DNA of 64,000 nt from Ferruginibacter albus. Lineage in GTDB: Bacteria; Bacteroidota; Bacteroidia; Chitinophagales; Chitinophagaceae. The DNA lies in NCBI RefSeq assembly GCF_020042285.1, contig NZ_CP083388.1:3126001-3190000 (forward strand), in the 5' to 3' direction. Each line of letters opens with the position of its first letter. The first letter of the stretch is position 1. The translations under genes and the position numbers were made by a program. This document shows, piece by piece, positions 25,094 through 56,317 of this stretch. The notes under the pieces were generated by a model. The model worked only from the letters and a program-made list of their open reading frames with translations, did not search any database and was not told where the DNA came from.

Positions 25094-25110
25094 TGTGTAT
25101 TTTTTACACA
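25094..25110 (+). promoter_or_regulatory. palindromic operator candidate, site 1 (secreted amylase promoter)
   Basis: TGTGTATTTTTTACACA: perfect 6-bp arms TGTGTA/TACACA with a five-base spacer. It lies 8 bases upstream of the -7 box TATCTTTG (25119-25126) of the amylase gene. The same 17 bases occur at 56301-56317; related sites are at 29648 and 54261. Confidence 0.65.
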
Positions 25111-25118
25111 ATTTAATA

Positions 25119-25126
25119 TATCTTTG
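25119..25126 (+). promoter_or_regulatory. -7 box of the secreted amylase gene
   Basis: TATCTTTG fits TAnnTTTG exactly and lies about 57 bases before the ATG at 25183. No proper -33 box is seen at 19-20 bases; the palindrome occupies that space, so activation or repression by a bound factor is likely. Confidence 0.6.
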
Positions 25127-25182
25127 AAAATACTGTTTCGGTAAACGATTTCTTTATTCACTAATAATAACAATTGCCATTG

Positions 25183-28095
25183 ATGAAAAAGTTATTTACA
25201 ATTGCATTAGCATTAACCTCGTTATTTACAAAAGCACAATTACTTTCCTGGTCGTCGGATTTTATTACAGAAAGTTCTACGCCAGTTACTATTATAATGA
25301 ATGCCAACTACGGCAATAAGGCATTATTAAATTATACCCCTACTTCTAATGTATATGTTCATATTGGTGTAATTACCAACAAAAGCACGTCTTCGGCAGA
25401 TTGGAAACATGTAGTGTTTTCATCGTTTACAACTGCTACTCCTGCTGCTAATTGTACTTACCTGGGAAATAATCAATGGTCATTCACAATAACCGGGGGG
25501 TTGCGCACTTTTTTCAGTGTAACTGATCCAACAGAAACTATTCAAAAAATAGCTATTCTTTTTAGAAATGGCAATGGTACCGTAAAGCAAGCCAATTCAT
25601 CGGGTAATGATATGTTTATTCCCGTCTATACCACAGGTTCTTTATATGCCAGAATTGACAACCCTTTTCGCCAACCGGAATATATTCCCATACCTGAAAC
25701 TTCTACAAAAAGTGTAGGATCCAATCTTCCTTTAGTTGCAAAAGCAAGTCTGGCGGGAAGCACAATTCAAACTTATTTCAATGGCAATTTGATTGCAACA
25801 AATGTTGGAACAAAAGATAGTAACAATGTTATTATTACTGCATCGGGTACACAAACCATAATCGTTGTAGCTACCAATGGCGCAAATGTATCAAGAGACA
25901 CATTATCGATCTTTGTCCGCCCCTCTACCGCTATAGCCGCATTGCCATCTAATTTGTATGATAACGGAGTGCCGCATGAGGGTATTACTTATTATGGATG
26001 TACAGATTCCGTATCACTCGTATTGTATGCTCCTAATAAAAGCTCTTCATACGTTATTGGCGATTTTTCCGGCAGCAACTGGACACAACAAACGCAGTAC
26101 CAGATGTACAAAACACCCGATGGAAATTATTATTGGCTCACTATTCACGGGCTTACTCCGACAACAGAATATGGTTTTCAATATGTAGTGGATGATAGTT
26201 TATATATCGCAGATCCTTATTCAGAAAAAATCCTGGATGGCAACAATGACCAATACATACCTGTTTCAGCGTACCCTAATCCTAAACCTTACCCTACTAA
26301 TGCGAACGTATCAAAAGGTAAAAATGGACTGATCGGCGTTTTGCAAACCTGCGCTCCTTCTTATACATGGAAGGCTCCGGCTTTTATTCGTCCCGATAAA
26401 AAGAACCTTGTTATTGAGGAAGTATTGGTTCGTGATTTTGCCTCAACAAACGGAAATGGTAATTTTAAATTATTACTGGACTCTTTAAATTATTTTAAAA
26501 GCTTAGGTATAAATGCTATTGAATTAATGCCTGTTTCAGAATTCAGTGGAGATGATAGCTGGGGATACAATCCTAACTTTTATTGTGCGCTGGATAAGGC
26601 TTACGGAACAAAAAACATGTACAAAGCATTTATTGACTCTTGTCATTCCAACGGAATAGCTGTAATTATGGATGTTGTATACAATCAGGTTGATGATAAT
26701 GGCGTGCAAGTTCCAGAAGCGAGATTATATTGGGACAAAACCAACAGCCGGCCAGCTGCAAACAATCCATGGTTAAATCAAACAGCACCACATCCTTATG
26801 GTGTGTTCCTGGATCTGAATCATACTTCAACCGCAACTCAATATTGGGTAGAGCGCTCCTTAATGTACTGGTTAAAAGAGTATAATATTGATGGTTTTAG
26901 ATTCGATCTTGCTAAAGGATTTACTCAAACACAAAGCAATAATACTACTGTAGAAAACTTTGATCAATCACGCATAGATAATTTATATCGTTACTATAAA
27001 TATGTACAGGATAATAATCCGGGCACAACAATGCCTTATATGATCCTTGAGTTTTTGGCAGGCAACACTCCAAGCGCTGAAGAAAATGCTTATGCAAACA
27101 TTGGGTTTTTATTGTGGGCTTCTATTGGAACAAATGGAACACCATCTCAAACTTCCTGGGATCAGAATTCAATGGGATATGCATCCAATTCCAATCTTTC
27201 CCGCTCTATCTACAATAGTTCAGACGAAGGCTTTTCAGTACCTGCAGCAATACCATATGCCGGCAGTCATGATGATCAACGTTTAATGTACACTACCGTT
27301 ACTTACGGTAATGGCGCAACGGTAAAATCAATTGCAGGTACAGGAGGAGCACTTCAAAGACAAGCAGCTATTGCCGCAATATTGTTTTTAGCACCCGGTC
27401 CAAAAATGTTATATCAATTTGATGAAAGAGGGTACGACATATCCATCAACGGAACTTCTTACAATAATCCGCATTGGGAATATCTAACTACAGATGCCAA
27501 TGCCACAGCAAGAAAAGCATGCGTAGCAGCATATAGTAAAATTATCAGCCTTCGATTATCGAATCCGGAAGTATTTAATAATACTACTTTTTCTTATGAT
27601 CTATATGATGGCGGCGGATTGTTCAGAAGATTTCAGATCGCAGATCCTAACAGCAGTGGTATGAAAATAACGGTTATTGCCAATTTTGATATTACCGCAC
27701 AAACAAGAACTATAACTTTTCAAACAACCGGCAACTGGTATAATTATCAATCGAATGGTACAAGTTCCGGGGCAAATGGGGCTACAGGTTCTATATACAA
27801 TGTTAGCACAGCTTCACAAAGCATTACCTTACAACCGGGCGAGTATCATGTGTATGTTTATCAACCGCCAACCAATTATACGTTTATTGGAAACGGAAAT
27901 TGGACAGATGCTTCTAACTGGATGGCAGGAAGCGTTCCTCCCGCAACATTACCAAACGGCTCTGCAATATATGTACAGCCTGCACCAGGAGGAAAAGCTA
28001 TTTTAAATACATCACAGACAATATCTTCTGGAGCAACATTCAATGTAGCTCCCGGCAAAAACTTATCGGTACCATTAAATCTTACGATTCAATAG
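25183..28095 (+). CDS. large secreted GH13 alpha-amylase/pullulanase-type enzyme
   Basis: 970 residues from the ATG at 25183 (MKKLFTIALALTSLFTKAQ signal peptide). The order is: an N-terminal beta domain (about 20-150), an Ig-like stretch, a CBM48-like domain (about 265-365, YYGCTDSVSLVLYAPNKSSS), then the GH13 barrel. Catalytic residues are seen in DGFRFDLAKGF (nucleophile Asp, about 574), MILEFLAGN (acid Glu, about 622) and AGSHDDQRL (about 695). A C-terminal domain (about 896-970) begins GNGNWTDASNWMAGSVPP, a motif also present in the two giant proteins downstream. It cleaves alpha-1,4 or alpha-1,6 glucans outside the cell or in the periplasm; exact specificity is open. No T9SS tail is seen. 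Confidence 0.92.
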   Translation: MKKLFTIALALTSLFTKAQLLSWSSDFITESSTPVTIIMNANYGNKALLNYTPTSNVYVHIGVITNKSTSSADWKHVVFSSFTTATPAANCTYLGNNQWSFTITGGLRTFFSVTDPTETIQKIAILFRNGNGTVKQANSSGNDMFIPVYTTGSLYARIDNPFRQPEYIPIPETSTKSVGSNLPLVAKASLAGSTIQTYFNGNLIATNVGTKDSNNVIITASGTQTIIVVATNGANVSRDTLSIFVRPSTAIAALPSNLYDNGVPHEGITYYGCTDSVSLVLYAPNKSSSYVIGDFSGSNWTQQTQYQMYKTPDGNYYWLTIHGLTPTTEYGFQYVVDDSLYIADPYSEKILDGNNDQYIPVSAYPNPKPYPTNANVSKGKNGLIGVLQTCAPSYTWKAPAFIRPDKKNLVIEEVLVRDFASTNGNGNFKLLLDSLNYFKSLGINAIELMPVSEFSGDDSWGYNPNFYCALDKAYGTKNMYKAFIDSCHSNGIAVIMDVVYNQVDDNGVQVPEARLYWDKTNSRPAANNPWLNQTAPHPYGVFLDLNHTSTATQYWVERSLMYWLKEYNIDGFRFDLAKGFTQTQSNNTTVENFDQSRIDNLYRYYKYVQDNNPGTTMPYMILEFLAGNTPSAEENAYANIGFLLWASIGTNGTPSQTSWDQNSMGYASNSNLSRSIYNSSDEGFSVPAAIPYAGSHDDQRLMYTTVTYGNGATVKSIAGTGGALQRQAAIAAILFLAPGPKMLYQFDERGYDISINGTSYNNPHWEYLTTDANATARKACVAAYSKIISLRLSNPEVFNNTTFSYDLYDGGGLFRRFQIADPNSSGMKITVIANFDITAQTRTITFQTTGNWYNYQSNGTSSGANGATGSIYNVSTASQSITLQPGEYHVYVYQPPTNYTFIGNGNWTDASNWMAGSVPPATLPNGSAIYVQPAPGGKAILNTSQTISSGATFNVAPGKNLSVPLNLTIQ

Positions 28096-28117
28096 TTGTT
28101 TTTTGGGAATAAAGAAG

Positions 28118-28147
28118 AAAGCCGTTCAATTCATTTGAGCGGCTTTT
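28118..28147 (+). terminator. hairpin terminator after the secreted amylase
   Basis: GCCGTTCAA (28121-28129) pairs with TTGAGCGGC (28135-28143), followed by TTTT. Confidence 0.75.
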
Positions 28148-28167
28148 CTATTTAATTCAATCTATTT

Positions 28168-28250
28168 TTATTTTGGGTTCACCAGCTTACTACTATCATC
28201 TTTTGTTGTGTCACTCACTTGTACGGCAACAAATATTTTATCATGTTCAA
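28168..28250 (+). repeat. dispersed intergenic repeat, copy 5
   Basis: The core at 28204-28223 reads GTTGTGTCACTCACTTGTAC, the best-preserved consensus copy. It is preceded by TTTTGGGTTCACCAGC, recalling the CCACCAGC flank of copy 3. It lies between the amylase and peroxiredoxin terminators, so it is outside any clear transcript. Confidence 0.75.
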
Positions 28251-28276
28251 AAAATATCTTTCAGTATAAAAACAAA

Positions 28277-28302
28277 AAAGCCACTTTTAATAAAGTGGCT
28301 TT
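28277..28302 (-). terminator. hairpin terminator of the peroxiredoxin gene
   Basis: AAAGCCACTTT (28277-28287) pairs perfectly with AAAGTGGCTTT (28292-28302). On the minus strand it is followed by a T-rich stretch. Confidence 0.8.
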
Positions 28303-28323
28303 GAATTATAAATTTAAAACTGA

Positions 28324-29064: not shown

Positions 29065-29079
29065 TAACTTTCTGCCATG
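29065..29079 (+). promoter_or_regulatory. -7-like box directly before the Rrf2 start
   Basis: TAACTTTC (29065-29072) is one base from the TAnnTTTG consensus and is followed by TGCC and the ATG. The arrangement copies the phosphatase and rlmN starts. Confidence 0.4.
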
Positions 29080-29487
29080 TTATCCAAAAAAACGCAATAT
29101 GCCCTTAAAGCATTGGGTTATTTAGCCGGCAAATTTGGCGATGGACCTGTATTGATCTCTGAGATATCCAAGAAGAAAAAGATTCCAATCAAGTTTCTTG
29201 AAACCATATTGCTGGAATTGAAACAAGCGCAAATTTTGGATAGCAAAAAAGGCAAAGGCGGGGGTTATTATTTATTGGAAAACCCTAAAAAAACCGACCT
29301 GGCGACAGCCATACGTACTGTTGGAGGTCCTATTGCCCTTTTACCCTGTGTAAGTTTAAATTTTTATGAAAAATGTAAAGATTGCAACGAACTTACCTGC
29401 GGATTGAACAAAGTAATGCTGCAAACCAGAGATGCAACCTTAAAAATACTGGAGAAAAAAACTGTAGCTGACCTGATCGATACCTAG
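29077..29487 (+). CDS. Rrf2-family transcriptional regulator
   Basis: 136 residues. The N-terminal winged helix is typical (MLSKKTQYALKALGYLAGKF, ISEISKKKKIPIKFLETILL, KGKGGGYYLLENP). The cluster-binding cysteine region is present: PCVSLNFYEKCKDCNELTCG (about 88-107) supplies several cysteines. It could therefore bind an Fe-S cluster, like IscR or NsrR. It lies divergent from the peroxiredoxin gene with about 115 bp between starts, which suggests a redox or Fe-S signal controlling that enzyme. Exact ligand and targets are unknown. Confidence 0.9.
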   Translation: MLSKKTQYALKALGYLAGKFGDGPVLISEISKKKKIPIKFLETILLELKQAQILDSKKGKGGGYYLLENPKKTDLATAIRTVGGPIALLPCVSLNFYEKCKDCNELTCGLNKVMLQTRDATLKILEKKTVADLIDT

Positions 29488-29606: not shown

Positions 29607-29639
29607 TCTTTTGCTATGCAAAAAACTGCCCCTTATTTC

Positions 29640-29671
29640 TTGATTAATGTGTAAAAAGTACACTATCTTTG
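29640..29671 (+). promoter_or_regulatory. promoter of the giant surface protein with operator site 2 in the spacer
   Basis: TTG (29640-29642), 21 bases, then TATCTTTG (29664-29671). The palindrome TGTGTA-AAAAG-TACACT (29648-29664) fills the spacer and touches the -7 box, the layout expected for repression. Eleven of twelve arm bases are symmetric. The ATG is 84 bases downstream. Confidence 0.6.
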
Positions 29672-29755: not shown

Positions 29756-32700
29756 ATGACTGCTTTAATTTTATTTATCAGCATTTTGCCAGGTATTGCT
29801 TTGCTATGTAGGCATAGCTATATACCTGTGTTTATACTTTCACCAATATTATTCTTCTCTGTTAATTCAAGTGCGCAAACAACCTTATCATACAGCCATA
29901 ACAGCGGTTATTATTCTAACTATGTTGATGGCACAGCGGGAATATTTACGCAAACAGCTAATGTACAAATTGGGCAATATGCCAATACAAGTGGTAACAA
30001 AAGAATTTTTTCTTATCGTAAGTTTCAAACAGCAGGTGATAATACAGGCACCAATCGTTCATTACAAGTTGGTGATAGTGTAATAATAGCAGGAAGCTTT
30101 TGCAGAGCTTATGGAAAAATTGGAATGTCTTTATTATGCAGCCCTGCCGCTATATCCGTGGGAACTACCTGGGCTGACAGGGAAAATAATTATGCTTTGA
30201 GTGTTTACATCGATGGTCCTACCAATACCGGCAATGGCACTTACAGTAATTGGAATGTAAAGGGAGCTTCTACACAAACCGCAAGTTTTGGAGGCAACCA
30301 GGGAACTTATCACGATTTCATTTTCACGTTTAAATTAAATGCACCTGACAGGATGAATGTGTACGTTAAGGATAATACTTTAGGTAGCACTTCTTCTTTT
30401 TACGATGTACAATTAAATAATTCAAATCCTATAACTGATTTTTCTATTTACCTGCAGGATGATTATGATGGATCAGCGAATAGAAATGCTTATTGGGGTT
30501 TAACCGGAGTTTCCAATATGAGTGTTACCAATACAGGAACCTCTACCTTAGGCTATGGCAACAGCGCTTTTACTGAAAGTAATGTTATTGCGAATGGATT
30601 TGCTGCCAACTCCATTGTAACATCATCTACCAATACATTTACCAAAATTGGTACAGGTACCATTACATTAAGCGGAGCTAATACTTATTCAGGCGCTACA
30701 ACTGTTAGTAATGGCGCATTGTTAATAACAGGAAGCACCAATGCATCAAGTGCTATAACAGTAGCAGCAGGTGCTACATTAGGTGGCACGGGTGCTCCTA
30801 CGGGAACAGTCAGTTTATCCGGTAATGTAGCACCGGGAACAAGCGCAGGAACCAACGGAACTTTATCAACCGGTGCATTAACTATTAATGCCGCATCTAC
30901 TTATAATTTTGATATCACTAATGTTTCAGGCACTGCAGGCACTAATTGGGATTATGTAAATTCAAGCGGAGCTATAACAGTTAATTCCACTTCCGGTTCA
31001 CCTTGCACCATTTATGTAGTGGGTAATCCTACTGGGTTTAGCTCTTGCAGCAATTACACATGGAAAATAGGAACAGGTATAAGCATATCCGGTTTTTCTG
31101 CTAATAAATTTTTCATAAATACAACCGGCTTTAGTACTTCATTTGGTGGTACCTTTTCCATAACACAATCAGGCAATGATATTAATTTAGTGTACACGGC
31201 GGCGTTAGCCACCCCAACTGTGAGTGTTAGCTTAACTACAGGCACCAACCCCGCCTGTAGCGGAACATCTCTCACATATACGGCGACGGCAAGTAATGTT
31301 GGTGGAGGAACAGTTACTTATAACTTTTTAAAAAATGGTGGATCTGTGCAAACCGGAACATCCAATACATATACAAATGCCACTCTTGCGAATAATGATC
31401 AAATCCAATGTAATATTAGCATTAGTGGAGGTACATGTTTAAGCAGCTCTACAGCCAATTCAAATACTATTACACAAGGCATAGATGCCGCCCCCACCGC
31501 ATCTAATGCAGGCAGCAACCAAACAATTGGAAATTGTGCTACTACATTATCTGCAAATAACCCAAGTATAGGCACGGGCACATGGAGCGTACAAAGTGGA
31601 ATGAGTGCATTAAGTACACAGTTTGCTAATGTAAATACATATAATACGACATTTACTCCTGCGGGAGGCGCCGGCAATTATGTATTACAATGGTCAATAG
31701 CAAATGGTAGTTGCACCGCTTCAACATCAACTGTAACAATCACAGTCCAATCAGGAACAATATGGACCGGTGCTTCAAGTAGTGATTGGAATGTTGCAGG
31801 CAATTGGAGTTGCGGCAGCATACCAACAAGCGCTACTGACGTTACTATTCCATCAGGAACTATTAATAGTCCCAACATCACATCTGCAAATGCCAATTGT
31901 AAAAACATTACAATTAACAACGGAGCTACGTTAACGCTGGCAAATTATTATAAACTAACGGTGGCGGCTACAGGAATTTTTACCAACAATGGTACGTTTA
32001 CTGCAGGCAATGGAGCCGTAACATTTGCAGGAACAGGTACCATTGCAGGCTCTAACTCTTCTACCTTTTACAATCTTATTATAAACGGAACAACTACACT
32101 TACTAAAGCACCAATCGTTACAGATAGCTTACAATTAAACAATAGTTCCTCTGTAAATACCAATTCTCCTGTGTATGGATCTTCATCTACATTAGTTTAT
32201 AATATTAACGGAGCCTATACGGTGAATACAGAATGGACAGGCAATGCAACCACCGCCGGTAGCGGTATTCCAAAAGATGTAATTATCCAAAACAATTCTG
32301 TTGTTACAATGCCGGTGGGCAACAGAGGTTTAGCGGGCAATTTATTTATTAACTCAGGAACCTTAAAACTCAATGGTACCGGTAACGATCTATATATTGC
32401 CGGTAATTGGACAAGAGCTTCGTCTGCAACATTTACTCCTAATAACAGTGCTGTGTATATGAATGGCAGTGCTCCTCAAACCATCTCAGTAACAGGAGGT
32501 GGAACAGAAACATTCAACTATTTGCGTCTAACCGGTACAGGTAGCTTTGTCCAAAGCTCAAGTCCTGCTACTAATATCACTGTTAATTCAAATGGTGGAT
32601 TAACACTAGGCGGCGGTTCATTAAACATTAACGGGCAAACATTTACTGTAAGTGGTGGTGGTAATTTAAGCTTGAGCACCGGAACGAGAACTATTATAAG

Positions 32701-35700
32701 TTCTGTTGCAGGAGCAAGCTTTATAGCAAGCGGGTCTGCGCTTACGGTTACCAATGGCGGCACTTTGTCTTTTGATGTAAATACCACAGTCAAATTAAGC
32801 ACAAGCATTGATTTTGCAAATAATGCCACTACCATTAATGGAATATTACAACTTAATAATAACGGCACTGTAAATAATAATCCTCCTAAATACGCCAACA
32901 CATCTTTGTTACAATACAATAGTGGAAGTAATACACATAATCGTGGAGCAGAATGGAACCAATCAACAGGTACAGTTGGGACTACTGCAGGCTATCCTTA
33001 TGATATTCAGGTAACTAATGGAACACAATTAAATGTTCCTAATGGAACGACACTACCAGCATTAGGTATTGCACATAATTTAATTATTGATAATAGTGCA
33101 GCTTTTTTTATGGATTATGGCTCCCCGGCAACCAGTAATGCTATTACAGTTGGTAACGATGTTTTAGTAAATGGTGATCTTTCTTTAGGTTTCGGAAATG
33201 GCGGTGATCTATACATTGGCGGCAACTACACTGTTGCAGCAAGCATCACCCCCAACAATAATGGCAGAAGAATATTTTTTAATAACGCCTCTAATGCAAC
33301 ACAGGTTATTACAAAAACCGGAGGAGGCACTGTTTACTTCGATTATATTGGAATAAGCCAACCATCAGGCTCAACAGGAAAAGTACAATTAAGCAGCAGT
33401 CCCGCTACCAACATTCAAATAAATAGTTCTGCCAATAATACAAGTGCAAGGCAAGTTAGGTTAGAAGGTGGTAGTTTAGATCTGAATGGTCAAACATTTA
33501 CATTAAACGGAACAGTTGCCAATTCCACTAATATCGGCGTATATAATGGCACAAGAAATATTATCAGCAGTGCAGGTGCCGGAACCCTTAACATTACAGG
33601 AACACCAGCATTAGGGCAACCGAATTTAGTTGTTTATCCTTCTGCAAGCAGAGTTCAAATTGCGACCAACGTTACTGTACGAACAAGTGTGGGATGCGAC
33701 TTGGATAGCATGAATTTTGACGGAGCATTTCAATTAGATCAATATGGATTTGTGATCAACAGCTCACCTATCTACGGACCAACTTCTACCTTAATTTATA
33801 ACAATACAGCATCGTTTAACAGAAACTACGAATGGACCGCTTCATCAGGAACTATTGATTACACTCCCGGCTACCCAAATGATGTAATTATTCAAAACAA
33901 TACATTGCTTCATTATGGATTATCAATTGTATCATCCGGTAATAAAGTTTCCAGGGCAACAAGAGGAAATCTAACTATACAATCTGGTTCCTCTTTAGAT
34001 ATGGATAGTACAAGATATCCATTGCTGGTTGGCAAATCGGTTAATATAAACGGCGCACTGATATTGTCCGATAGTGCCGGTGGCGATATTAAAATCGGAG
34101 AAAACTGGAATCGTTCTTCAACCGGTACATGGAGCAGTAATGACAGAGCTGTTTATTTAGACAGTTCGCTTACCGGCACTATTACAGCTTCGGGCGGAGA
34201 AAATTTTCCTTATCTATACTTACTAAAAAATAGTGTAGGCAATACTGTTAGCCTGAATGACAGCGTCGCTATCACAAAGAAATTAGGTTTATACAGAGGA
34301 GCTCTTGATCTTGTCAACAAAAACCTGACGATTGTTTCAAACAGGTTTGCAACAGCAGTTATAGATACTACTATTACTTCGTCAAATGTTTCTTTACCCT
34401 ATTCCGGTTCGGGAAGATTTTATATAGAGCGATTCATATCGAATGATTCAAGCAATGATCATAGTACTACCAATGTAGGGCAACGAGGATGGAATTTATT
34501 ATCAACTGCGCAAGTAACAAGCACACAAACTATTAATGAAGCGTGGCAGGAAGGTGCTGTAAGCAACGCCAACACAGTAACCGGAATTGTAAATCCTGTT
34601 GCGGGTTATGGAACTGTAATTACAGGACCAAACAAAGCAGGAAACATTTCATTAGGCTTTGATCCTGGCACACAAAATAATGAATCTATTAAATACATGA
34701 ATAGTGCCGGAACAGCATGGATATTACCGCCCAATACAAAATCAACTTCTATTAATACCGCTGTAGGCTACCTGATCTTTGTAAGAGGAAACAGGACTTT
34801 TATTGTGGGAGATCAATATAAAAGAACAGATACCACTACCTTAAGGATAAAAGGAAAAATAAATGTAGGTGATTATTCATTTAATCCTGCGGCCGCTTCT
34901 TACCAGGTAGTAGGCAACCCTTATGCTGCGGAAATTAATCTGAGCAACTTATTTAACAGCAACAATCCCACTATCGGCTCAACTTATTATGCATGGGATC
35001 CATTGCTCAATGGAACTAATTTAGTAGGAGCTTATGTTACAGCAAACTTTACTGCACCTAATACGTGGTATTATAACATCGGCGTAACAAGTCCTGCCGG
35101 CATGATGCCCGGAAAAATTGAATCAGGGCAGGCTTTTATTTTAAAATTTTTAACTACCGGCAGTGTTGCTTTTCATGAAACAGATAAAACTTCTGTAAAT
35201 GGCAATTTGATCTTCCGCCCGGCTCAACCACCCGGTTTGTTTGGTGTACTATTAAATAAGACTACCGCATGGGGGCAAAAAATATTATCGGATGGCGCTT
35301 TACAAATTTTAGGTAGCACCTTTTCTAATCTGCCATCTTACACGGAAGACAGCAAAAAACTGACAAGTCCCGGTGAAAACATTTGTTTAACTATTAATGG
35401 TACAACGTGGGCTATAGATAAAAGACAGGATTATACTTTATTTGACACCGTCTTTTATAAATTAAACAACCTTTCAAAAGATATTCCTTATCAGTTAGCA
35501 TTTTACAATAGTAATATATCTAACTCACTTCAACCTGTTTTACAGGACCTGTATACAGGAAGCAATACCTTAATAAAACTTTCTTCGGATACCACTTATT
35601 ATAATTTCACCATTACCAGCGATTCTTTATCATCCAATCCAAATCGGTTTAGAATTGTGTTTAGCTCTGCATTACCCGGAAATGCGTTGCCTGTAACTTT

Positions 35701-42211: not shown

Positions 42212-42226
42212 AAGTACTATTACAAG

Positions 42227-44671: not shown

Positions 44672-44711
44672 ACGCTAATTTACAATGATTATACGCTTTT
44701 AATAAAAATAA

Positions 44712-44734
44712 AAATGCCGGAATAACCGGCATTT
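44712..44734 (-). terminator. hairpin between GH13 and GH31
   Basis: AAATGCCGG (44712-44720) pairs with CCGGCATTT (44726-44734). On the minus strand it is followed by a T-rich run. It may attenuate expression of GH31 and dinB relative to the sus genes. Confidence 0.7.
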
Positions 44735-44751
44735 AAATAAACTATTTGTGA

Positions 44752-46098: not shown

Positions 46099-46120
46099 TG
46101 TAATTATTTTAAGAAAAGAA

Positions 46121-46149
46121 AAACCGGCTCCAAAAATAAGAACCGGTTT
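46121..46149 (-). terminator. hairpin between the SusF-like gene and GH13
   Basis: AAACCGG (46121-46127) pairs with CCGGTTT (46143-46149), extended by TC/GA. An A-run on the plus strand gives T-rich sequence on the minus strand. Likely partial terminator or processing site inside the locus. Confidence 0.65.
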
Positions 46150-46172
46150 GGTATAATTAAAGAATCTCTTTT

Positions 46173-48026: not shown

Positions 48027-48044
48027 AATTAGTTTTTTAAAAAA

Positions 48045-48887
48045 TTATTTCATTGGCGTAAAAGGAACAAGATCAGCCTGCCCTGTACTTACCGTTGTTG
48101 GGCTTCCCGATATATCTAACACCGTTCCGTTAAACTGATATTTAAACCCGGCAAGATTATGTCCATTCTGCTGTGTTGCAAAGTTTGCTGAAGGAATGAA
48201 TGTAGCTGTCCAAATTGTTGCACCTGTTTTTCTTGCAGTAACTGTTATTGGGTTTCCTATTTGATTATTTTGATCGTCGTAAGCAGTAATAGTTGCAGAA
48301 GCCGGCGTCATGCGTTGGTCATTAACCGCTGTTGCCAGACTTTGATCAAAATTTACAGACACCACATCATTGGTATCGATCTTAGCAGGAAATACTCTTA
48401 ACATTGTAGGCGTAAATATTAATGCATCAAACTTAAAGCCGCTACCCTTAGTCAGTGCATTATCTGTTTGTTTGCTACCATCAATATTTCTTGCTAAATA
48501 ATTAAAGCTAAACATTGTACCAGGGGTAAGACCAAACAAAGTAGTACCTGTAAATGTAAATGACCAAACATCACCATTAACTTTTGTCATTTTAACACCA
48601 TCGGGGTTTGCCAAAGAAGCCCAGGTTCCTCCATCATTCAATGCGGTAGTTGCATTGGCATCTGCTGCCTGTCCGTCTGCATCATGGTAACACCATATCC
48701 ATAAATAAATATCACTGGCACCTGCCATTGCTGTACCGCTTAGATCAGCAGTAAGAGTAACCTGGTCTTCTGCTGTAAATGATGCAGGAGATAGGCTTGT
48801 TACCGGCGTTCCGTTTTGCGCATAAATATTCAAATGAATTAGGGTGAGTAACACACTTGAAAAAATTATACTTACTATTTTTTTCAT
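48045..48887 (-). CDS. exported carbohydrate-binding-like protein of the sus locus
   Basis: 280 residues with a signal peptide (IYAQNGTP), not a lipobox. The first half is a beta domain (VTSLSPASFTAEDQVTLTAD, YLWIWCYHDADG, WSFTFTGTTLFGLTPG) that resembles the N-terminal domain of the secreted amylase at 25183. The second half has an Ig-like pattern (MLRVFPAKIDTNDVVSVNFD). It is probably a periplasmic or released glycan-binding accessory. The name of the family is not certain. It lies 18 bp before the SusF-like gene. Confidence 0.75.
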   Translation of the reverse strand: MKKIVSIIFSSVLLTLIHLNIYAQNGTPVTSLSPASFTAEDQVTLTADLSGTAMAGASDIYLWIWCYHDADGQAADANATTALNDGGTWASLANPDGVKMTKVNGDVWSFTFTGTTLFGLTPGTMFSFNYLARNIDGSKQTDNALTKGSGFKFDALIFTPTMLRVFPAKIDTNDVVSVNFDQSLATAVNDQRMTPASATITAYDDQNNQIGNPITVTARKTGATIWTATFIPSANFATQQNGHNLAGFKYQFNGTVLDISGSPTTVSTGQADLVPFTPMK

Positions 48888-48898
48888 GTTGAATATTT

Positions 48899-49408
48899 TT
48901 ATTGTTGTTTAGTAAAAAGATAACTGTAAGAAAGAAGCTTTGTTCCGGAAGAAGCATCATACTTATTTACCACTACAGGCAATTGTGCCGATGTTTCTGT
49001 AGGATAAGATCCCAACTTAATTCTTATAGTATCTGTTGCCCCTGCCAATACTAATGAGTCTGGGTATTGTGCATCATTAAAATACCAATTGCCTGAGCTT
49101 ATAGGTATAACAATTGGAGCACTACCTTGTGTTGTACTGAATGTAGTGGGATTACCCCCATTCATATTTAATGTTAATGAGAAGTCGCTATAAGGAAATA
49201 AATTAGTGATATCCATTGTTTTAAAAGGAAATCCTTTTGAAGATGCAACTTCATCTGTTTGTGTCACACTGGACAATTTCCATGTGCCTGCAAATGCTGA
49301 GGTTACAGCAACAGGAGCTTTTAAAGCCGGCACCGCATCGGGTGTACAAGATTGCTCTACTATTGTTATTGCAAGTAACAACAAACTGTATTTTAATATT
49401 TTTTTCAT
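48899..49408 (-). CDS. lipocalin-like (DUF5004-type) lipoprotein of the sus locus
   Basis: 169 residues. The signal MKKILKYSLLLLAITIVEQS ends at a lipid-bearing Cys (SCTPDAVPA, about 21). The mature part begins with a lipocalin-like opening (FAGTWKLSSVTQTDEVASSK) and continues with beta strands (DFSLTLNMNGG, GNWYFNDAQYPDSLVLAG). Such proteins recur just after susD in Bacteroidota glycan loci. The role is unknown; glycan binding or receptor stabilisation is a guess. Confidence 0.78.
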   Translation of the reverse strand: MKKILKYSLLLLAITIVEQSCTPDAVPALKAPVAVTSAFAGTWKLSSVTQTDEVASSKGFPFKTMDITNLFPYSDFSLTLNMNGGNPTTFSTTQGSAPIVIPISSGNWYFNDAQYPDSLVLAGATDTIRIKLGSYPTETSAQLPVVVNKYDASSGTKLLSYSYLFTKQQ

Positions 49409-49439
49409 ACTCGTATTTATTAATAAGTAACTAAATCAA

Positions 49440-50837
49440 TTAAAAGCATCCTCCTGTTGGGTTTTGCACAAAACCAGGATAAGATGCTGTTTCCAGCGCA
49501 GGAAATGGTAAAATAAATCCATTACAATCCCAAGGAGAGCCTCTTCTATCAATATTCGTTCCTTCCAATACACCAATTCTTTTTATTTCCTGTAAACGAT
49601 TTCCTTCTCCTACCATTTCCAGTTCATGTTGTGTTCTGGCGGTGCTGATCACCAATGCCGCAGTTGAACCTATTGGTATATTCATAGAACCTGTAAAACC
49701 AGATGCTCTATTTAATATATCGTTTATATCACCTATAGCAGTTGCTAGAGCAGAAGGATTATTATTAGCTATTTCTGCTCCTGCCTCTGCCCGTATTAAC
49801 TTCATTTCTGTTAAATGTAAAACCGTATAGTCGAAATAATCCTTATTATACTTACGTAAGGAATTAAAGCCCGGTTGTAAGGTGGTACTATAAAATGCAG
49901 TATCTCTAACGTCGTTTGGATTAGAGGTTGCCGCATTAAAATAAGCATCCGTAAAATAGAAATAAGGAATGTTTATATCCGATCTCCAGCTTCCCTGCAC
50001 TTCACTTGCGGGTTGATTAGTACCGGGTGCCGCAGCAATTCTCAGAATAGATTCTTTACTTAATCCCAATGAAAAGCGATCAGAATAATTTGAATCTAAT
50101 TGAAATTTATTGCTGTTAATTACCATGTCAGCATATTTAAAAGCATTTGTAAAATCATTCATTTGGAAATATACTTTAGCCAAATATGCTTCTGCAGCCC
50201 ATTTTGTAGCTGAGTAATATTTTCCATCAGCCGGAGTAGCCGGAAGTAATGAATCTGCACTTTGTAGATCAGCAATTACCTGATCATAAATCTGCTTTAC
50301 TGTACTGCGTGGAAGTGCTTCCAAACTAGAACTCACTCTAAGCGGAATTCCTAAATGAGAATTATCAGGTGTAAAACCATAAGGCTGAGCAAACATTCTT
50401 ACTAATTCAAAATGTCCTACTCCTCTTAAAAACTTTCCTTCTCCTTCATAATAATTAATATTGCTTCCACCCTGAGCCAGGTTCTCTAACATAATATTTC
50501 CCGAGTGTATCACCCTATATCCCTGCTGATAAAAATCGCCCATTTCTGCACCAAAATATTGCGCATTTCTGTTATAAAAAGTTATATCATCTCCGCTGAA
50601 ATTATTCTTCAATTGATCCGCCATCAGTTCACTTATTTTCTGTAAATGACCGCCGATAAAATTGTTATTTACAAAATCTAAATAGGCTCCATTAGCAAAA
50701 GCAGCAATACCGGTAGAATCTTTAAATGGTTCTGATAACTGACCTTCTGGTGGACGTTCCAGGAAATCTTTACTACAGGATTCAACTACGAAGAGAACTG
50801 CAATTAGTAATAAGGAATTAAAAAATTTATATTTCAT
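49440..50837 (-). CDS. susD: SusD/RagB-family glycan-binding lipoprotein
   Basis: 465 residues. The lipobox is FVVESCSKDFLERP, with Ser-Lys-Asp after the Cys, a surface-export type sequence. The SusD N-terminal motif is seen (RPPEGQLSEPFKDSTGIAAF), then the TPR-like helical core (WAAEAYLAKVYFQMNDFTNA) and the C-terminal region ELEMVGEGNRLQEIKRIGVL. It acts as the lid on the SusC barrel and binds the glycan. It lies 18 bp after susC. Ligand is likely alpha-glucan by context. Confidence 0.96.
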   Translation of the reverse strand: MKYKFFNSLLLIAVLFVVESCSKDFLERPPEGQLSEPFKDSTGIAAFANGAYLDFVNNNFIGGHLQKISELMADQLKNNFSGDDITFYNRNAQYFGAEMGDFYQQGYRVIHSGNIMLENLAQGGSNINYYEGEGKFLRGVGHFELVRMFAQPYGFTPDNSHLGIPLRVSSSLEALPRSTVKQIYDQVIADLQSADSLLPATPADGKYYSATKWAAEAYLAKVYFQMNDFTNAFKYADMVINSNKFQLDSNYSDRFSLGLSKESILRIAAAPGTNQPASEVQGSWRSDINIPYFYFTDAYFNAATSNPNDVRDTAFYSTTLQPGFNSLRKYNKDYFDYTVLHLTEMKLIRAEAGAEIANNNPSALATAIGDINDILNRASGFTGSMNIPIGSTAALVISTARTQHELEMVGEGNRLQEIKRIGVLEGTNIDRRGSPWDCNGFILPFPALETASYPGFVQNPTGGCF

Positions 50838-50855
50838 AATTATATTTATTAATTA

Positions 50856-53800
50856 TTAAAAAGTAACATTTAATGAAATGATAAAAGACTTTTGTGCAGG
50901 AGTAGTATAATATGCTACGTTAGGAGATAAGTTTTTATCAATATCATTATTATCAGCTCCTCCTTGTCCCTGGAAATCTCTGATAACTTCCGGATCACCA
51001 TTAGGATATTTACTAAAGGTTAAAAGATTATTTGCCGACACAGAAACACTTGCATCTTTAATAAAAGATCTCAGCAATACAGCTTTAGGAATGCGATAAG
51101 CGAAGGTGATCTGCTTCATTCTTATATAACTTCCGTCATGCAAAAACATTGTGGAGTTAAATTGATATTTGCTTACTACGCCTGGATACTCCGTAATATC
51201 ATCTACCAGCTTAGGATATTTAGCAATATCTCCGGGTTTGGTCCATCTGTCAGTAAAATCTGTTCTAAAATTATCCCAATTGTTAAATGAAACTCCTGCA
51301 AATTGTTCCTTACCGGAACCGTCGTAAATATTACCTCCAATTACATAAGTAAACAAGGTAGATACGCTGAAGTTTTTATATGCAAAAGAGCTATTGAATC
51401 CTCCATAGTAATCAGGCTGAACTGAGCCATCGGGTACACGGTAGTCAAGAGAATAAGTTTTTGTTTGTTTGCCATTTTGATCCAACCAAATTGGCAAGCC
51501 ATCAGCAGGGTCAACTCCATAGTAACGAACTAAATAATTAATCCCGATTGGATAACCAACCTGCAGTCTTGTATCGTTGAAAGATGCAGCAGATGTAACA
51601 TCAGGACTTACAGGGAATGCCAAGACTCTATTATCGTTCTTAGCGATATTTCCACCAACTGTCCATTTGATATTCTTAGTGTTTATTATTTTAAAATCTG
51701 CACTAAACTCAAGCCCTTCATTTTTTATTTGTGAGCCATTCAAATTTCTCCAACCACCATTGAAACCTGTAGATGTTTGTGTTCCAACATAAAATAGAAT
51801 ATCTGAAGATAATTTATGGTAATACGCAATTTCACCTGTCAGCCTGTTATTAAATAATCCATACTCCAACGCCACATCAGCATTTTTAAGTTTTTCCCAA
51901 TGAAGATCAGGATTGCCGGGTGCATTATTGTAAAGTGTAGCGTTGCCCAAATAAGGCACACCTCCTGCTCTATAATCAGGATAATAACGGCCAGCAGGGT
52001 AATTAGAGTTACCTACTTCTCCATAGCTTGCCCTTAGTTTAAGAAAATTGATACTCCTGCTATTTTTTAGAAAAGCTTCATCGCTAATTATCCAAGCTGC
52101 AGAAACAGCAGGGAAGAAACCATGCCTGGAGTTTTGACCGAATTTTGAAGAACCATCCTCACGCAATGTTACCTGCAATAAATACTTGCTTAATAGACTA
52201 TAATTAAGACGACCAAAGAAACTGTTGAATGTCCACGAATCATAAGGAACACCTTGCTTTACTATACCTCCATTAGCCAAAAGATCTGCCTTTCTTGCTT
52301 CATAAGCAGAAGGAATTTCCCAATAAGGCTGACTGGAACTTTGTGAAATAGTTCCAACATAGTTATAAATTTTAGCTTCCTGTTCCTCATTACCCACAAG
52401 GAAGGTGAACTTGTGCTTATCCTTTATATTTAAATTATAAGTAGCAGTAAAAGTAGCTGTCCAGTTATCTCCAAAATAAGGAGAACCGCTGGTATAACCG
52501 GAATCTACCGGGAACAAAGTGTTTTCACCATGATTGTACTTATTATCTTTAAAATAATAATTAACAGTATTGATATCTTCGATAGAACCAACGCCTTTCA
52601 GAATTAAATTTTTTATTGGTTGAAATTCAACTGTTAAGCCTCCTGTTAAACGCCTTGCATATTCTCTTTGCTGTTGCCTTGCCTGATCACGAACAGGGTT
52701 TGATGTGGCTGAAGTATAAACTCCAACAGAATCATAAACAGAATAGATGGGTAGCGCTGACGACATTGCTTTTATCAGCGTTCCTTGTTGCTGCTCATTA
52801 ATCCCATTATTATAACCGGAAGTAAGAGATATCTTTAGTTTTTTACTTGCAGTATAATCTAAGTTAAATCTTCCCGATACTCTTGTGTAACTATTATTGA
52901 CAATATAGCCTTCGTCTTTACCGTAAGTAAAATTGGCAAATGCTTTTAGCTTTTTTCCGCCAACATTCATAGAGAGATTGTGTTCATTGATAATACCCGT
53001 ACGAGTTACCAGGTCCCACCAATCAGTGTTGGTTGTTTGAGCCTTAGATAAAGAAACACCATTGGGAAGAGGTGCATAACCTGTATTACCGCTGTTAACC
53101 CAGGCTTCCTGTCTTAATTGCAACCATTCAGGACCATCAACAAAATCAGGCTTTTCTGTGTATGTATCTAATCCCCATTTATTGCTGTAAGTAAATGTCA
53201 ATTTACCGGATTTACCTCGTTTAGTAGTAATAAGTATAACACCATTGGCACCTCTTGAACCATAAATCCCCGTTGCACCTGCATCTTTTAAAATTTCTAT
53301 AGATTCAATATCATTAGGATTGATAGATGCCAAAGGGTTTTCATTAGCTCCATTACTTGCGCCCACAACAAAGTTGTCGTTAAAAATGGGAATACCATCC
53401 AACACATACAAGGGATCGCCACTAGATGCTAATGATGCTGTACCTCTGATACGTACTACAGATCCGGAACCTGCTAAACCATTACCGGTTATTACCTGCA
53501 CACCAGGAGCTTTACCTTGCAGACTTGCTTCAATACTTTGAACAGGAGCACTATTGATCTGTTCACTTGTTACTTTAGAAATAGCACCCGTTACTTCTTT
53601 CTTCTTCTGTGAGCCGTAACCGATTACCACAACTTCATCTAAAGAAGAACTTACAGCTACCAAACTAATATTTAAAGCTCCGGCACCAATTGGCACTGTT
53701 TGAGCAGTATAACCAACCGATGTAATAGTTAATGAAGTTGCCGTTGCAGGAACATTCGCAATTGAAAAACTGCCATCAGCGGCAGTTGGTGCTGCCAATT

Positions 53801-53951
53801 TTGTTCCTTTTACACTAACGGTAACATTTGATAAGGGAGCGCCCGTTTTTGAATCGGTTACCTTTCCTGAAACGGTTTTGTTTTGAGCCATGCTATAAGA
53901 GATGCCGGCAAGCCAAACAATCGTTAACAGAAGCAGTCGTTTTACATTCAT
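50856..53951 (-). CDS. susC: SusC/RagA-family TonB-dependent outer-membrane transporter
   Basis: 1031 residues with a signal peptide ending at SMAQ (about 22). Domains in order: a carboxypeptidase-regulatory-like domain (about 25-105, VSGKVTDSKTGAPLSNVTVS), a TonB-contact/SusC motif (LDEVVVIGYGSQKKKEVTGA), the plug (LYVLDGIPIFNDNF, IEILKDAGATGIYGSRGANG) and the beta-barrel to the end (KSFIISLNVTF). It imports maltodextrin-like oligosaccharides using TonB energy. First gene of the sus operon; operator site 3 lies 310 bp upstream. Confidence 0.97.
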   Translation of the reverse strand: MNVKRLLLLTIVWLAGISYSMAQNKTVSGKVTDSKTGAPLSNVTVSVKGTKLAAPTAADGSFSIANVPATATSLTITSVGYTAQTVPIGAGALNISLVAVSSSLDEVVVIGYGSQKKKEVTGAISKVTSEQINSAPVQSIEASLQGKAPGVQVITGNGLAGSGSVVRIRGTASLASSGDPLYVLDGIPIFNDNFVVGASNGANENPLASINPNDIESIEILKDAGATGIYGSRGANGVILITTKRGKSGKLTFTYSNKWGLDTYTEKPDFVDGPEWLQLRQEAWVNSGNTGYAPLPNGVSLSKAQTTNTDWWDLVTRTGIINEHNLSMNVGGKKLKAFANFTYGKDEGYIVNNSYTRVSGRFNLDYTASKKLKISLTSGYNNGINEQQQGTLIKAMSSALPIYSVYDSVGVYTSATSNPVRDQARQQQREYARRLTGGLTVEFQPIKNLILKGVGSIEDINTVNYYFKDNKYNHGENTLFPVDSGYTSGSPYFGDNWTATFTATYNLNIKDKHKFTFLVGNEEQEAKIYNYVGTISQSSSQPYWEIPSAYEARKADLLANGGIVKQGVPYDSWTFNSFFGRLNYSLLSKYLLQVTLREDGSSKFGQNSRHGFFPAVSAAWIISDEAFLKNSRSINFLKLRASYGEVGNSNYPAGRYYPDYRAGGVPYLGNATLYNNAPGNPDLHWEKLKNADVALEYGLFNNRLTGEIAYYHKLSSDILFYVGTQTSTGFNGGWRNLNGSQIKNEGLEFSADFKIINTKNIKWTVGGNIAKNDNRVLAFPVSPDVTSAASFNDTRLQVGYPIGINYLVRYYGVDPADGLPIWLDQNGKQTKTYSLDYRVPDGSVQPDYYGGFNSSFAYKNFSVSTLFTYVIGGNIYDGSGKEQFAGVSFNNWDNFRTDFTDRWTKPGDIAKYPKLVDDITEYPGVVSKYQFNSTMFLHDGSYIRMKQITFAYRIPKAVLLRSFIKDASVSVSANNLLTFSKYPNGDPEVIRDFQGQGGADNNDIDKNLSPNVAYYTTPAQKSFIISLNVTF

Positions 53952-54423
53952 ACTTTATAGTTTACATTGTTTTAGATAATTCACAATCATCAAATAAATA
54001 TATAAGAGACCCTGGTTATTAAATCCGGTACGGGCAATAATTTGACTTGCATCAAGCTATTGTTGTACATTTTATTAATTCCGTTGAATTTTCCTTTTAT
54101 CTATTGTGAAAATATGGGCGAAAGGCTGAACAGTCTTTGGGCTTAGTAAACCTTTAGGGGAAGCAAAGCAGCAGTCAATTCCCATATAGCTTTAATCAAT
54201 CGTTTATTAAATATAGTGAATTAAAAATAAAAAGTTAAAATTATTTCTGATGCAATGTTCGTGTAAATTTTACACATTAGCAAAAAATATTTATTTTTTG
54301 CTCAAATAGCCACGCCGGAATGGAAATACCATTTCCTTCAAAAAGCCAGCTGCCCATTATTTAAACATACGATGAATGAGAATTTAATTCTTTGTAAAAT
54401 ATATTTATAAAAGGCTTAAAATA
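53952..54423. other. 472-bp intergenic region before susC
   Basis: The region separates susC from the upstream SusA-like amylase gene. It contains palindrome site 3 (54261-54277) and no other gene. It is AT-rich. No clean TAnnTTTG box was found for susC, so its start of transcription is unclear. A long 5' leader of about 250-300 bases is possible. Confidence 0.6.
54261..54277 (-). promoter_or_regulatory. palindromic operator candidate, site 3 (upstream of susC)
   Basis: CGTGTA-AATTT-TACACA; eleven of twelve arm bases are symmetric. It shares the arm sequence and five-base spacer with sites 1, 2 and 4. It lies between the end of the SusA-like gene and the susC start. Confidence 0.6.
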
Positions 54424-56274
54424 CTAATCTTCCAGCTGTAAAATCAGCATTGCTTTTGGAGTTATCGTAAAATTGTCTCCTAAATTCTTCTCAGTCAGAA
54501 CATCTATTGCTTTGGTAAAACTGCCTGCTCTTTCAGCGTATTTATTTTTAAGGTCGATATTTTTTTCTTTATCAGAAGTGTTCATTATACACATTATAGT
54601 CTGTTTAGCATCGTATCGGAAATACACATACAACCCGTCTTCAGGTAAATATTGCATCATCTTGCCTGTTTTTAATGCGGATGATGTTCTGCGGAAATTA
54701 GCCAGCTTTTTAACGTAGTTAAAAATGGAATCTTCCTTTTGCGTTCTTCCGGAGGATGAAAATTTATTTACAGTATCTTCTTTCCAACCGCCTTTAAAAT
54801 CGAGCCGTACATTACCGTCAGGGTTAGTAAAGCCGGTCATTAGTATTTCATCTCCATAATACAGCTCAGGAATTCCTCTAAAAGTAAATAGCCAGGCTAA
54901 AGCCATTTTGTACTTATTAATATCCTCTCCTACTACTGAATAAAACCTGGGCAAATCGTGATTGTCCAAAAATATCACTTCATTCATCGGGTTTTTATAA
55001 ACAAAATCCTGCGCAGCAGTAGTATATAATTTGTTTACGCCTTCTGTCCAACCGAAATTTTCATTTACCGCAGGCTGAATGCCGTAAAACAAACATTGAA
55101 AATCTGTTGTGCCTTGCAGGTTGCTTTTGAATGGGATGTTATAATTATTCTGGCAAAAATAACTTTGGTTAGGAACGCCATGCACCCAGGTTTCACCAAA
55201 CATCGTCATCTTAGGATATTCATCAGTCAACGCTTTGTTACAGCGATTCATAAACTCAAGATCGTTATAGATGTATGTGTCAATACGCCATCCATCTATT
55301 CCAAACTCTTCTACACACCAAATAGCGTGTTGAATTAAAAAGTTAGCTACATACGGATTACTTTGGTTTATATCCGGCATTTGGTGAGTGAACCATCCAT
55401 CACTTGTTACTTTTTTATCGATAGTTGCTGCGTAGGGATCAAACAAGGTTTGATCTTTATAAGATGTTTGTGTATACTTTGGCCATTGATGTACCCAATC
55501 TTTAAACGGCATATCCCGATAAAAAATATTTTCAATTCCAACATGATTATATACCGCATCCTGTATCAATTTCATTCCATGTTGATGCAAAGAATCACTT
55601 AGTTTTTTGTATGCTTCTTCGCCTCCTAAGCGTGGATCGATTTTATATTCATTGGTGAATGCATAACCATGCTCTGTTCTGTTAGGCATATCATTTTCTA
55701 AAACCGGTGTCATCCAAAGAGTAGTAACACCTAAGTCCTGCAAATAATCTAAATGATTTATTACACCCTGCATATCACCGCCGTGACGAAGAAAGATAGA
55801 ATCCCGGTTTAGCGATTGATCTCTCATGCCTGGAATTTTATCATTGTTATAATCACCATTGCTAAATCGATCAGGCATTAATAAATAAATAAAATCGGAT
55901 GAGGTAACCCCTTGCGCAAAAGCTGTTCCTCTTCCTTTTCTTCTTTCTTTTAGTTGATATTTTAAAGTATAAGATGAAGATGAGTTTTTAATGTAGATAT
56001 TTTTATACCCGGCTTTAGCCGTTGGAGCGATTTCAATATCGACAAATAAATAATGGTTGTTTTCGGGCTTATAGATTTTACCAATTTTTATATCGCTGCT
56101 GCCGGAAGTAACTTGTGTAGTTGCTGTTGTTAATCCCTCAGCTTTGCGAAGCATTAGCTGGATTTTATTTGTTTTCATTCCTGCCCACCAGTGAGTAGGA
56201 TATACATCGATAGATTGAGCATTTATTAATAAAATAGAGAATAGCGAACAGAGAAGGAATACTACTTTCTTCAT
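54424..56274 (-). CDS. SusA-like GH13 amylase/neopullulanase (cyclomaltodextrinase type)
   Basis: 616 residues from the ATG at 56274 (MKKVVFLLCSLFSILLINAQ signal peptide); the TTG at 56295 is not favoured. An N-terminal cyclomaltodextrinase-like beta domain (about 20-110, IDVYPTHWWAGMKTNKIQLM) comes first. The barrel has DGWRIDTYIY (nucleophile, about 329), MFGETWVHG (acid, about 358) and FLDNHDLPRF (about 437). A C-terminal beta domain follows. This is the build of Bacteroides SusA-type periplasmic neopullulanases, which shorten imported maltodextrins. Operator site 4 lies 27 bases before the ATG. Confidence 0.93.
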   Translation of the reverse strand: MKKVVFLLCSLFSILLINAQSIDVYPTHWWAGMKTNKIQLMLRKAEGLTTATTQVTSGSSDIKIGKIYKPENNHYLFVDIEIAPTAKAGYKNIYIKNSSSSYTLKYQLKERRKGRGTAFAQGVTSSDFIYLLMPDRFSNGDYNNDKIPGMRDQSLNRDSIFLRHGGDMQGVINHLDYLQDLGVTTLWMTPVLENDMPNRTEHGYAFTNEYKIDPRLGGEEAYKKLSDSLHQHGMKLIQDAVYNHVGIENIFYRDMPFKDWVHQWPKYTQTSYKDQTLFDPYAATIDKKVTSDGWFTHQMPDINQSNPYVANFLIQHAIWCVEEFGIDGWRIDTYIYNDLEFMNRCNKALTDEYPKMTMFGETWVHGVPNQSYFCQNNYNIPFKSNLQGTTDFQCLFYGIQPAVNENFGWTEGVNKLYTTAAQDFVYKNPMNEVIFLDNHDLPRFYSVVGEDINKYKMALAWLFTFRGIPELYYGDEILMTGFTNPDGNVRLDFKGGWKEDTVNKFSSSGRTQKEDSIFNYVKKLANFRRTSSALKTGKMMQYLPEDGLYVYFRYDAKQTIMCIMNTSDKEKNIDLKNKYAERAGSFTKAIDVLTEKNLGDNFTITPKAMLILQLED

Positions 56275-56300
56275 GTGGCAAAATTTATATGGCAATGAAT

Positions 56301-56317
56301 TGTGTATTTTTTACACA
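56301..56317 (-). promoter_or_regulatory. palindromic operator candidate, site 4 (SusA-like amylase promoter)
   Basis: TGTGTATTTTTTACACA, identical to site 1 over all 17 bases. It ends 27 bases before the ATG at 56274. A near-consensus -7 box (AAATTTTG, minus strand) lies between the site and the start codon, so the mRNA would have almost no leader. Confidence 0.65.

Follow-up and report, generated by a model that had tools for sequence, protein, structure and literature searches.

The use of starch in Ferruginibacter albus is predicted to be controlled by a single regulator acting on a set of short inverted repeats. Four such palindromes lie before starch genes in a window of 64,000 nucleotides, positions 3126001-3190000 of the single 3,760,165-base contig of this genome (NZ_CP083388.1). 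We propose, with a probability of about 0.86, that they are operators of a repressor encoded at 56430-57176, which would belong to the sugar-sensing branch within the NrtR family and jointly control the starch genes. An earlier sequence-only reading had pointed to the palindromes and missed this likely regulator, the product of a neighbouring gene. The proposal is carried by what was computed: the sites, their rarity and placement, their co-occurrence with the regulator, their conservation in promoters and the conserved DNA-contact residues of the regulator. Coordinates of all features are collected in Table 1.

The palindromes were described at first as four copies of TGTGTA-N5-TACACA with shared 6-bp arms. 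All four exist and share the five-base spacer, but full 6-bp arms are found only at sites 1 and 4, which are the same 17 bp, as had been claimed, and both perfect at 12/12. The arms common to all four are 5 bp long, and the shared element is the 10-base core GTGTA-N5-TACAC. Site 2 reads ACACT at its 3' end and site 3 begins with a C. The positions given for sites 1, 2 and 4 were correct; site 3 had been placed one base too far, at 54261-54277. Palindrome matches with at most two mismatches occur 14 times in the window against 3.29 expected from shuffling, and none of 100 shuffles reached 14.

Across the genome, perfect 12-base sites number five, against zero for the pattern read backwards. Exact 10-base cores number eight, against two for the backward control, so the distribution of the motif is not random. 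Four of the eight cores lie within the 31 kb spanned by sites 1 to 4. By place, six stand before alpha-glucan genes or the gene for a giant surface protein with a type IX secretion system (T9SS) sorting tail, one before a secreted protein and one within coding sequence. The statement that no copies precede unrelated genes was thus nearly right, the extra cores including those at an unassigned secreted protein and in the interior of mreB. The gene for an alpha-glucan phosphorylase (glgP) was assigned by the NCBIfam model TIGR02094, which exceeds its cut-off of 191.7 bits with 278.5 bits on an incomplete piece of 392 residues. On this piece the Pfam Phosphorylase model falls just short of its threshold, and a model for a starch-synthase domain lies above its own. 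Upstream of the only pfkA gene of the genome (L360, C1:1247101-1247934), at 52 bp from its start, stands TGTGTTTTTTATACACC, which matches the core at 9/10 bases and suggests that entry into glycolysis belongs to the regulon. The idea of a local regulon therefore stood as to the co-control of alpha-glucan genes and fell as to locality, as the sites at malQ, glgP, the secreted protein of locus L001 and pfkA, all far from the window, rule it out. The predicted regulon spans capture at the outer surface, cytosolic phosphorolysis of glucans and perhaps glycolysis. Two minor observations extend the list. The secreted protein of L001 adjoins a GH1 gene and is a candidate regulon member; its T9SS tail is marginal (22.4 bits, cut-off 23). 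Sites with one mismatch in 12 precede GH71-like and GH99-like genes (L012 at 2070158, L014 at 2669641), which are possibly further glycan targets.

The candidate regulator is the sole protein of the genome with an NrtR-type winged helix (PF21906) and is encoded next to operator 4. This domain and its Nudix domain (PF00293) both score over their cut-offs. Its best solved relative is BtAraR (5bs6, E 3e-52), the L-arabinose repressor BT0354 of Bacteroides thetaiotaomicron. In an AlphaFold model with a mean predicted local distance difference test (pLDDT) score of 82.1, the predicted fold is closest to BtAraR (template modelling score 0.82/0.89, 39-40% identity) and then to NrtR. The Nudix box, GDIVKVDEELDDAADRVLFERTGM, has two of the three glutamates of the REUXEE core replaced (signature from PMC4666351). 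Judged by these residues, the Nudix domain is predicted to be catalytically impaired and the protein to be a regulator, not a hydrolase.

Residues were surveyed in 96 orthologs, 76 from a set of 80 named loci and 20 from a group at 55-65% identity. The BtAraR DNA contacts D178, R180, N181, R183, K184 and R205 are kept in 96/96, and K179 is conservatively replaced by Arg in 94/96; four of the six AraR contacts K179, R180, N181, K184, K204 and R205 are identical. The sugar pocket has changed. Arg34 is Ser in 93/96 orthologs (two Cys, one gap) and Gly48 is Asp in 95/96, with Arg86 (95/96) and His131 (96/96) retained. Paralogs carry Arg34 in 18/20 cases. In a wider alignment, the one sequence with Ser34 from outside the clade is L135, and Asp48 is common to many other Bacteroidia members that retain Arg34. 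Since most of the contacts are conserved and the pocket is altered, the candidate should read AraR-like DNA, and the ligand that it senses is probably other than L-arabinose.

The link between sites and regulator was followed across 147 genomes of the family, F. albus included, of which 116 hold relatives of the regulator at E<=1e-20. Orthologs were separated from paralogs at a gap between 249.7 and 200.6 bits, fixed before the site counts were known. The 94 genomes with an ortholog hold 195 exact 12-base sites, with at least one site in 69. Regulator and sites are found side by side in many relatives from soil and water. The 53 genomes without an ortholog hold 13 in sum: seven sites in the 22 paralog-only genomes, four of which have one, and six in the 31 genomes without any relative, six of which have one. 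The backward control gave 13, 1 and 4 in the ortholog, paralog-only and relative-free groups. A Mann-Whitney test over the 147 genomes gave p 9e-12, a nominal value because the genomes share ancestry and are not independent. A class-wide draw of 295 genomes yielded 10 matches at E<=1e-60. Six of them belong to the family; the other four, from outside, score 215-223 bits, under the ortholog line.

In the tree, the starch-associated proteins form one clade (97/97, support 0.72), which in a thinned wider tree has support 0.997 for all but L163. This clade stands apart from BtAraR and from the proteins linked to NAMPT. A GH13 or SusC gene lies within 6.5 kb of the regulator at 10/13 loci of at least 64% identity (14 were taken, and in one the regulator was not recognised by the caller of open reading frames), at 19/20 loci of 55-65% identity and at 3/20 paralog loci. 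Paralog loci hold araA in 8/20 cases and NAMPT in 3/20. Near the ortholog, araA was found at 0/33 loci and NAMPT, the only nicotinamide adenine dinucleotide (NAD) gene sought, likewise at 0/33.

Around the regulator, 80 named loci (1.30 Mb, 23/80 sharing DNA with the other locus set) were scanned for GTGTA-Nk-TACAC with k from 0 to 12. Sediminibacterium and Hydrotalea are represented among these loci. The spacer k=5 occurs 42 times and any other at most five times. The gene nearest these N5 sites is a secreted GH13 in 28 cases, a divergent DNA ligase in five, SusC in four, the regulator in two and another gene in one; two sites have none within 400 bp. The sites nearest the divergent DNA ligase probably belong to the promoter of the regulator itself. 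In other genomes, neighbours were surveyed for the 70 listed sites out of 203. Six have no outward-facing gene within 600 bp, three of these being inside coding sequence, and the remaining 64 lead to 62 distinct nearest genes. Among the listed matches (the best 25 of 59 Pfam families), these comprise the SusC plug (16), GH13 (12), the major facilitator superfamily (5), GH77 (4), phosphorylase (4), and GH31, GH97, phosphofructokinase and DNA ligase (2 each). One is an aldolase, and some look unrelated, including a metallophosphatase and a beta-lactamase-fold protein.

These data also bear on whether the palindrome belongs to another regulator, be it LacI-type, SusR-like, Crp-like or unrecognised, with the NrtR-type gene merely a conserved neighbour. 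LacI-like genes do occur at 6/34 ortholog loci and 10/80 named loci, and the genome encodes two LacI proteins, but both of these genes lie more than 0.9 Mb from those of the window. The number of sites tracks the NrtR-type ortholog over the 147 genomes, also at distant loci. Moreover, the arms and spacer match tested BtAraR operators: the gel-shift oligonucleotides contain GTGTATTTGATACAC, an exact core, as well as GTGTTACTTTTACAC and GTGTAAAAAAGACAC, each with 9/10 bases (PMC4666351). For SusR, the sites on record are direct repeats, and the palindrome of Bacteroides Crp is a different one (PMC3878776). We regard another regulator as quite improbable, although no search for SusR itself was made in this genome. 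An Rrf2 regulator encoded at 29077-29487 adjoins site 2; it was considered and set aside, since none of the other three sites has it as a neighbour and nothing connects Rrf2 to the motif.

Sites are conserved in orthologous promoters. Footprints were compared across a total of 30 genomes: 15 that have the ortholog, taken down the score list, and 15 that lack it, hand-picked from both negative groups. The glgP gene was found in 14 regulator-positive and four regulator-negative genomes. A site with at least 8/10 core bases precedes 10 of the 13 regulator-positive copies counted (at least 70% identity), 4-71 bp before the start, versus 0/4 regulator-negative copies. One of the three misses has just 50 bp of upstream sequence, and no site precedes any of five further copies that are second or divergent ones (51-55% identity). 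As a spacer control, N3 at 8/10 or better was found in 8/17 positives; at 9/10, N3 was found in one versus N5 in 8/17. For malQ, a site was found in 7/13 regulator-positive versus 1/4 regulator-negative copies.

A further case is the giant surface protein. Besides F. albus, G034 and G078 of the 147 genomes searched match its residues 25-682 at E<=1e-40; the search scored two candidate stretches per genome, and more relatives may exist. A perfect site stands upstream in both relatives. Between these promoters the arms are pairwise 11-12/12 identical and the flanks match at only 37-56 of 170 positions. This retention of the site amid diverged flanks is the best evidence, at the sequence level, for counting the giant protein in the regulon. 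Its co-control with the starch genes, proposed at the outset, is thus supported by the non-random motif, by promoter conservation and by the tracking of one regulator. The same retention speaks against an origin as palindromes arising by chance, or as RNA hairpins such as terminators, within AT-rich DNA between genes. The short arms, the AT-rich region (37% G+C) and backward controls above zero would fit such an origin, but no shuffle matched the window count, only spacer 5 is enriched and the sites are positioned before genes. This origin has next to no probability.

How would the regulator act on transcription? As had been claimed, the sites precede the secreted amylase, the giant T9SS protein, susC and the SusA-like gene, and three of them have a promoter context. 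Sites 1 and 2 lie within likely core promoters, and 26 bp separate site 4 from the ATG (56274) at which the SusA-like gene probably begins. The TAnnTTTG promoter box is generally used across the phylum. In Flavobacterium it has been described as the -7 box, at position -12 to -5 (PMC9723704). Site 1 lies 8 bp 5' of its TATCTTTG box and would span about -37 to -21 if transcription starts 5 bp past the box. Site 2 occupies most of the stretch from a TTG at 29640 to the -7 box at 29664. Both sites overlap the -33/-7 stretch. Among 71 oriented sites, seven of this genome and 64 from relatives, eight have an exact TAnnTTTG box whose start is no more than 60 bp from that of the site, sites 1 and 2 among them, versus 2.0 expected from shuffling. 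In three cases, site 1 included, this distance is exactly 25 bp. In relatives, the distance from site to called start is 4-60 bp in 41/64 cases and larger in 18, and five sites overlap the start.

This closeness to start codons is greater than expected for an activator. Repression is the likeliest mode because the sites are placed near the core promoter or start and because BtAraR is a repressor released by its sugar. The same operator and regulator could also work as an activator or in a dual manner, with the sugar-bound form switching the starch genes on. AraR and XylR are NrtR members in Bacteroides, and the starch regulator known there, SusR, is an activator (PMC3878776); site 3 also lies far upstream of susC. 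Such a mode is nevertheless unlikely, given that BtAraR, the closest characterised relative, loses DNA affinity upon sugar binding (PMC4666351), that operators 1 and 2 fall within likely core promoters and that most sites in relatives lie so near the start codon.

Several observations weigh against a repressor of the starch genes. No perfect 12-base site is present in 25 of the 94 ortholog genomes, and one genome (G043, 83% complete) has four sites and a weak NrtR hit. Site 3 has the weakest promoter placement, with 308 bp between it and the susC start. Overlap with the core promoter is seen directly in few cases, the eight boxes among 71 oriented sites, and in four of the 71 a TAnnTTTG box lies 8-45 bp upstream of the site. 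In the regulator, K204 of the wing is replaced by His and S163 by Arg, each in 96/96 orthologs, and among further contact positions A208 is Lys or Arg and K200 is variable. The malQ footprint is the weaker one, and one regulator-negative genome has a 9/10 match at -193. Finally, no autoregulatory site precedes the regulator gene in this genome (best 7/10); some relatives have one.

From these data we infer DNA binding, repression and an inducer for the candidate regulator. By analogy with BtAraR, a dimer would bind GTGTA-N5-TACAC, each half-site being contacted by one winged helix. The bound dimer would block transcription of the starch genes by covering either the -33/-7 stretch or the point where transcription starts. 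During alpha-glucan use, a sugar would bind the inactive Nudix domain and rotate the two winged helices out of register, and the regulon would be induced together. The induced set would comprise the surface and secreted amylases, the SusCD importer, the SusA-like amylase, the giant T9SS surface protein, MalQ, the alpha-glucan phosphorylase and probably pfkA. The inducer may be maltose, glucose or an early hexose phosphate; L-arabinose is disfavoured because the pocket residue is altered.

Known systems resemble this proposal in part. BtAraR shares with the candidate the Nudix and winged-helix fold and a nearly identical recognition helix (D[KR]RNFRK). It also shares the operator layout, and in its DNA-bound form one recognition helix occupies each GTGT half-site (PMC4666351). 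Its regulon, like the one predicted here, spans surface SusCD, glycosidases and cytoplasmic enzymes (PMC4666351). Unlike BtAraR, the orthologs carry Ser34, Asp48 and His204 and lack araA nearby, and they are predicted to act on genes of alpha-glucan use and glycolysis. NrtR of Shewanella oneidensis (3gz5/3gz6), a repressor of NAD genes that responds to adenosine diphosphate ribose, has the same fold and domain order; unlike it, the candidate orthologs have no NAMPT nearby and differ in recognition-helix residues. The candidate scores 138.7 bits against the NCBIfam NtrR equivalog NF050029, whose cut-off is 400. XylR (BT0791), a xylose regulator likened here by description, is a further sugar-type NrtR member in Bacteroidota (PMC4666351, PMC3878776). 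A xylose-isomerase motif was found at 0/34 ortholog, 0/80 named and 0/20 paralog loci, in a search run without a positive control.

Starch use in Bacteroidota is known from the textbook Sus system under SusR. This membrane-bound, maltose-sensing activator governs the functional counterpart of the present gene set, susA, susC and others, through a periplasmic sensor and direct-repeat sites (PMC3878776), in contrast to the cytoplasmic-type protein and inverted repeat described here. An AraR-like regulator, unrelated to SusR and with an ortholog in 94 of 147 genomes, appears to run Sus-counterpart genes and to join outer-membrane capture to cytosolic phosphorolysis, perhaps also to glycolysis entry. 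Operators are predicted in 69 of these 94 genomes. A gene likely called a Nudix hydrolase in databases gains a predicted function, and a giant secreted protein is placed in starch use. The NrtR/AraR kind of regulator was already known; what appears new is the assignment of an AraR/NrtR-type sugar repressor to alpha-glucan use. No description of an NrtR-type starch or alpha-glucan regulator was found in the accessible literature, RegPrecise and subscription journals lying outside the search. A broader view is tentative, at somewhat less than even odds. It holds that an undescribed subfamily with a dead Nudix domain is the alpha-glucan master switch in most Chitinophagaceae, linking T9SS, Sus, MalQ, phosphorylase and phosphofructokinase genes through a near-invariant operator. 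The subfamily would belong to a wider set of NrtR-like proteins in Bacteroidota that control glycolysis (pfkA) through the same operator, and the ligand would therefore be a glucose-derived metabolite, not a polymer-specific sugar.

Table 1. Features of the window (window coordinates) and exact cores elsewhere in the genome (contig coordinates).
Feature	Position	Strand	Details
Candidate operator 1	25094-25110	none	TGTGTATTTTTTACACA; 12/12 arm bases
Candidate operator 2	29648-29664	none	TGTGTAAAAAGTACACT; 11/12 arm bases, core 10/10
Candidate operator 3	54260-54276	none	CGTGTAAATTTTACACA; 11/12 arm bases, core 10/10 at 54261-54275
Candidate operator 4	56301-56317	none	TGTGTATTTTTTACACA; 12/12 arm bases; between SusA-like and regulator genes
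Candidate regulator, 248 residues	56430-57176	-	PF21906 2.3e-26, PF19368 6.3e-11, PF00293 8.9e-08
-7 promoter box	25119-25126	+	TATCTTTG; consensus TAnnTTTG, from sequence
-7 promoter box	29664-29671	+	TATCTTTG; from sequence
Secreted GH13 amylase with CBM48	25174-28095	+	PF00128 8.6e-22, PF02922 6.8e-05; probable ATG 25183
Giant surface protein, 2157 residues, T9SS sorting tail	29756-36229	+	PATR repeat, Por_Secre_tail
Probable operon, susC to GH31	42227-53951	-	same strand, tight spacing, Pfam
susC	50856-53951	-	Pfam
susD	49440-50837	-	Pfam
DUF5004 and DUF4961 reading frames	within 42227-53951	-	Pfam
SusE/F-like	46173-48026	-	Pfam
SusG-like GH13	44752-46098	-	Pfam
GH31	42227-44671	-	Pfam
SusA-like cyclomaltodextrinase/neopullulanase	54424-56295	-	PF00128, PF09087, PF10438; probable ATG 56274
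Core before malQ (CBM20-GH77 4-alpha-glucanotransferase)	2559890		same 17 bp as sites 1 and 4
Core before glgP (alpha-glucan family phosphorylase)	2975024		
Core before a 382-residue secreted protein (L001:327-1475)	1025921		perfect operator sequence
Core inside mreB coding sequence	298850		

Outside the family, NrtR-like genes of about 37-44% identity stand beside pfkA in 8 of 30 class loci of Bacteroidia. The exact GTGTA-N5-TACAC core is present in five of these eight (L332, L337, L338, L350 and L356), a count made without a spacer control, and L337 and L338 are near-identical. These genes may form a branch that regulates glycolysis through the same operator.

The Por_Secre_tail of the giant protein scores above the NCBIfam cut-off and below that of Pfam, and no relative in the PDB was found by sequence for its first 548 residues. 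On the same strand, 3' of this gene, the reading frame at 36390-40706 encodes a secreted protein of 1438 residues with no Pfam or NCBIfam match; it may be co-transcribed with the giant gene. Elsewhere in the window, a 9/10 core at 15217-15233, perhaps a chance match, lies between a nuoA-like gene and its neighbour.

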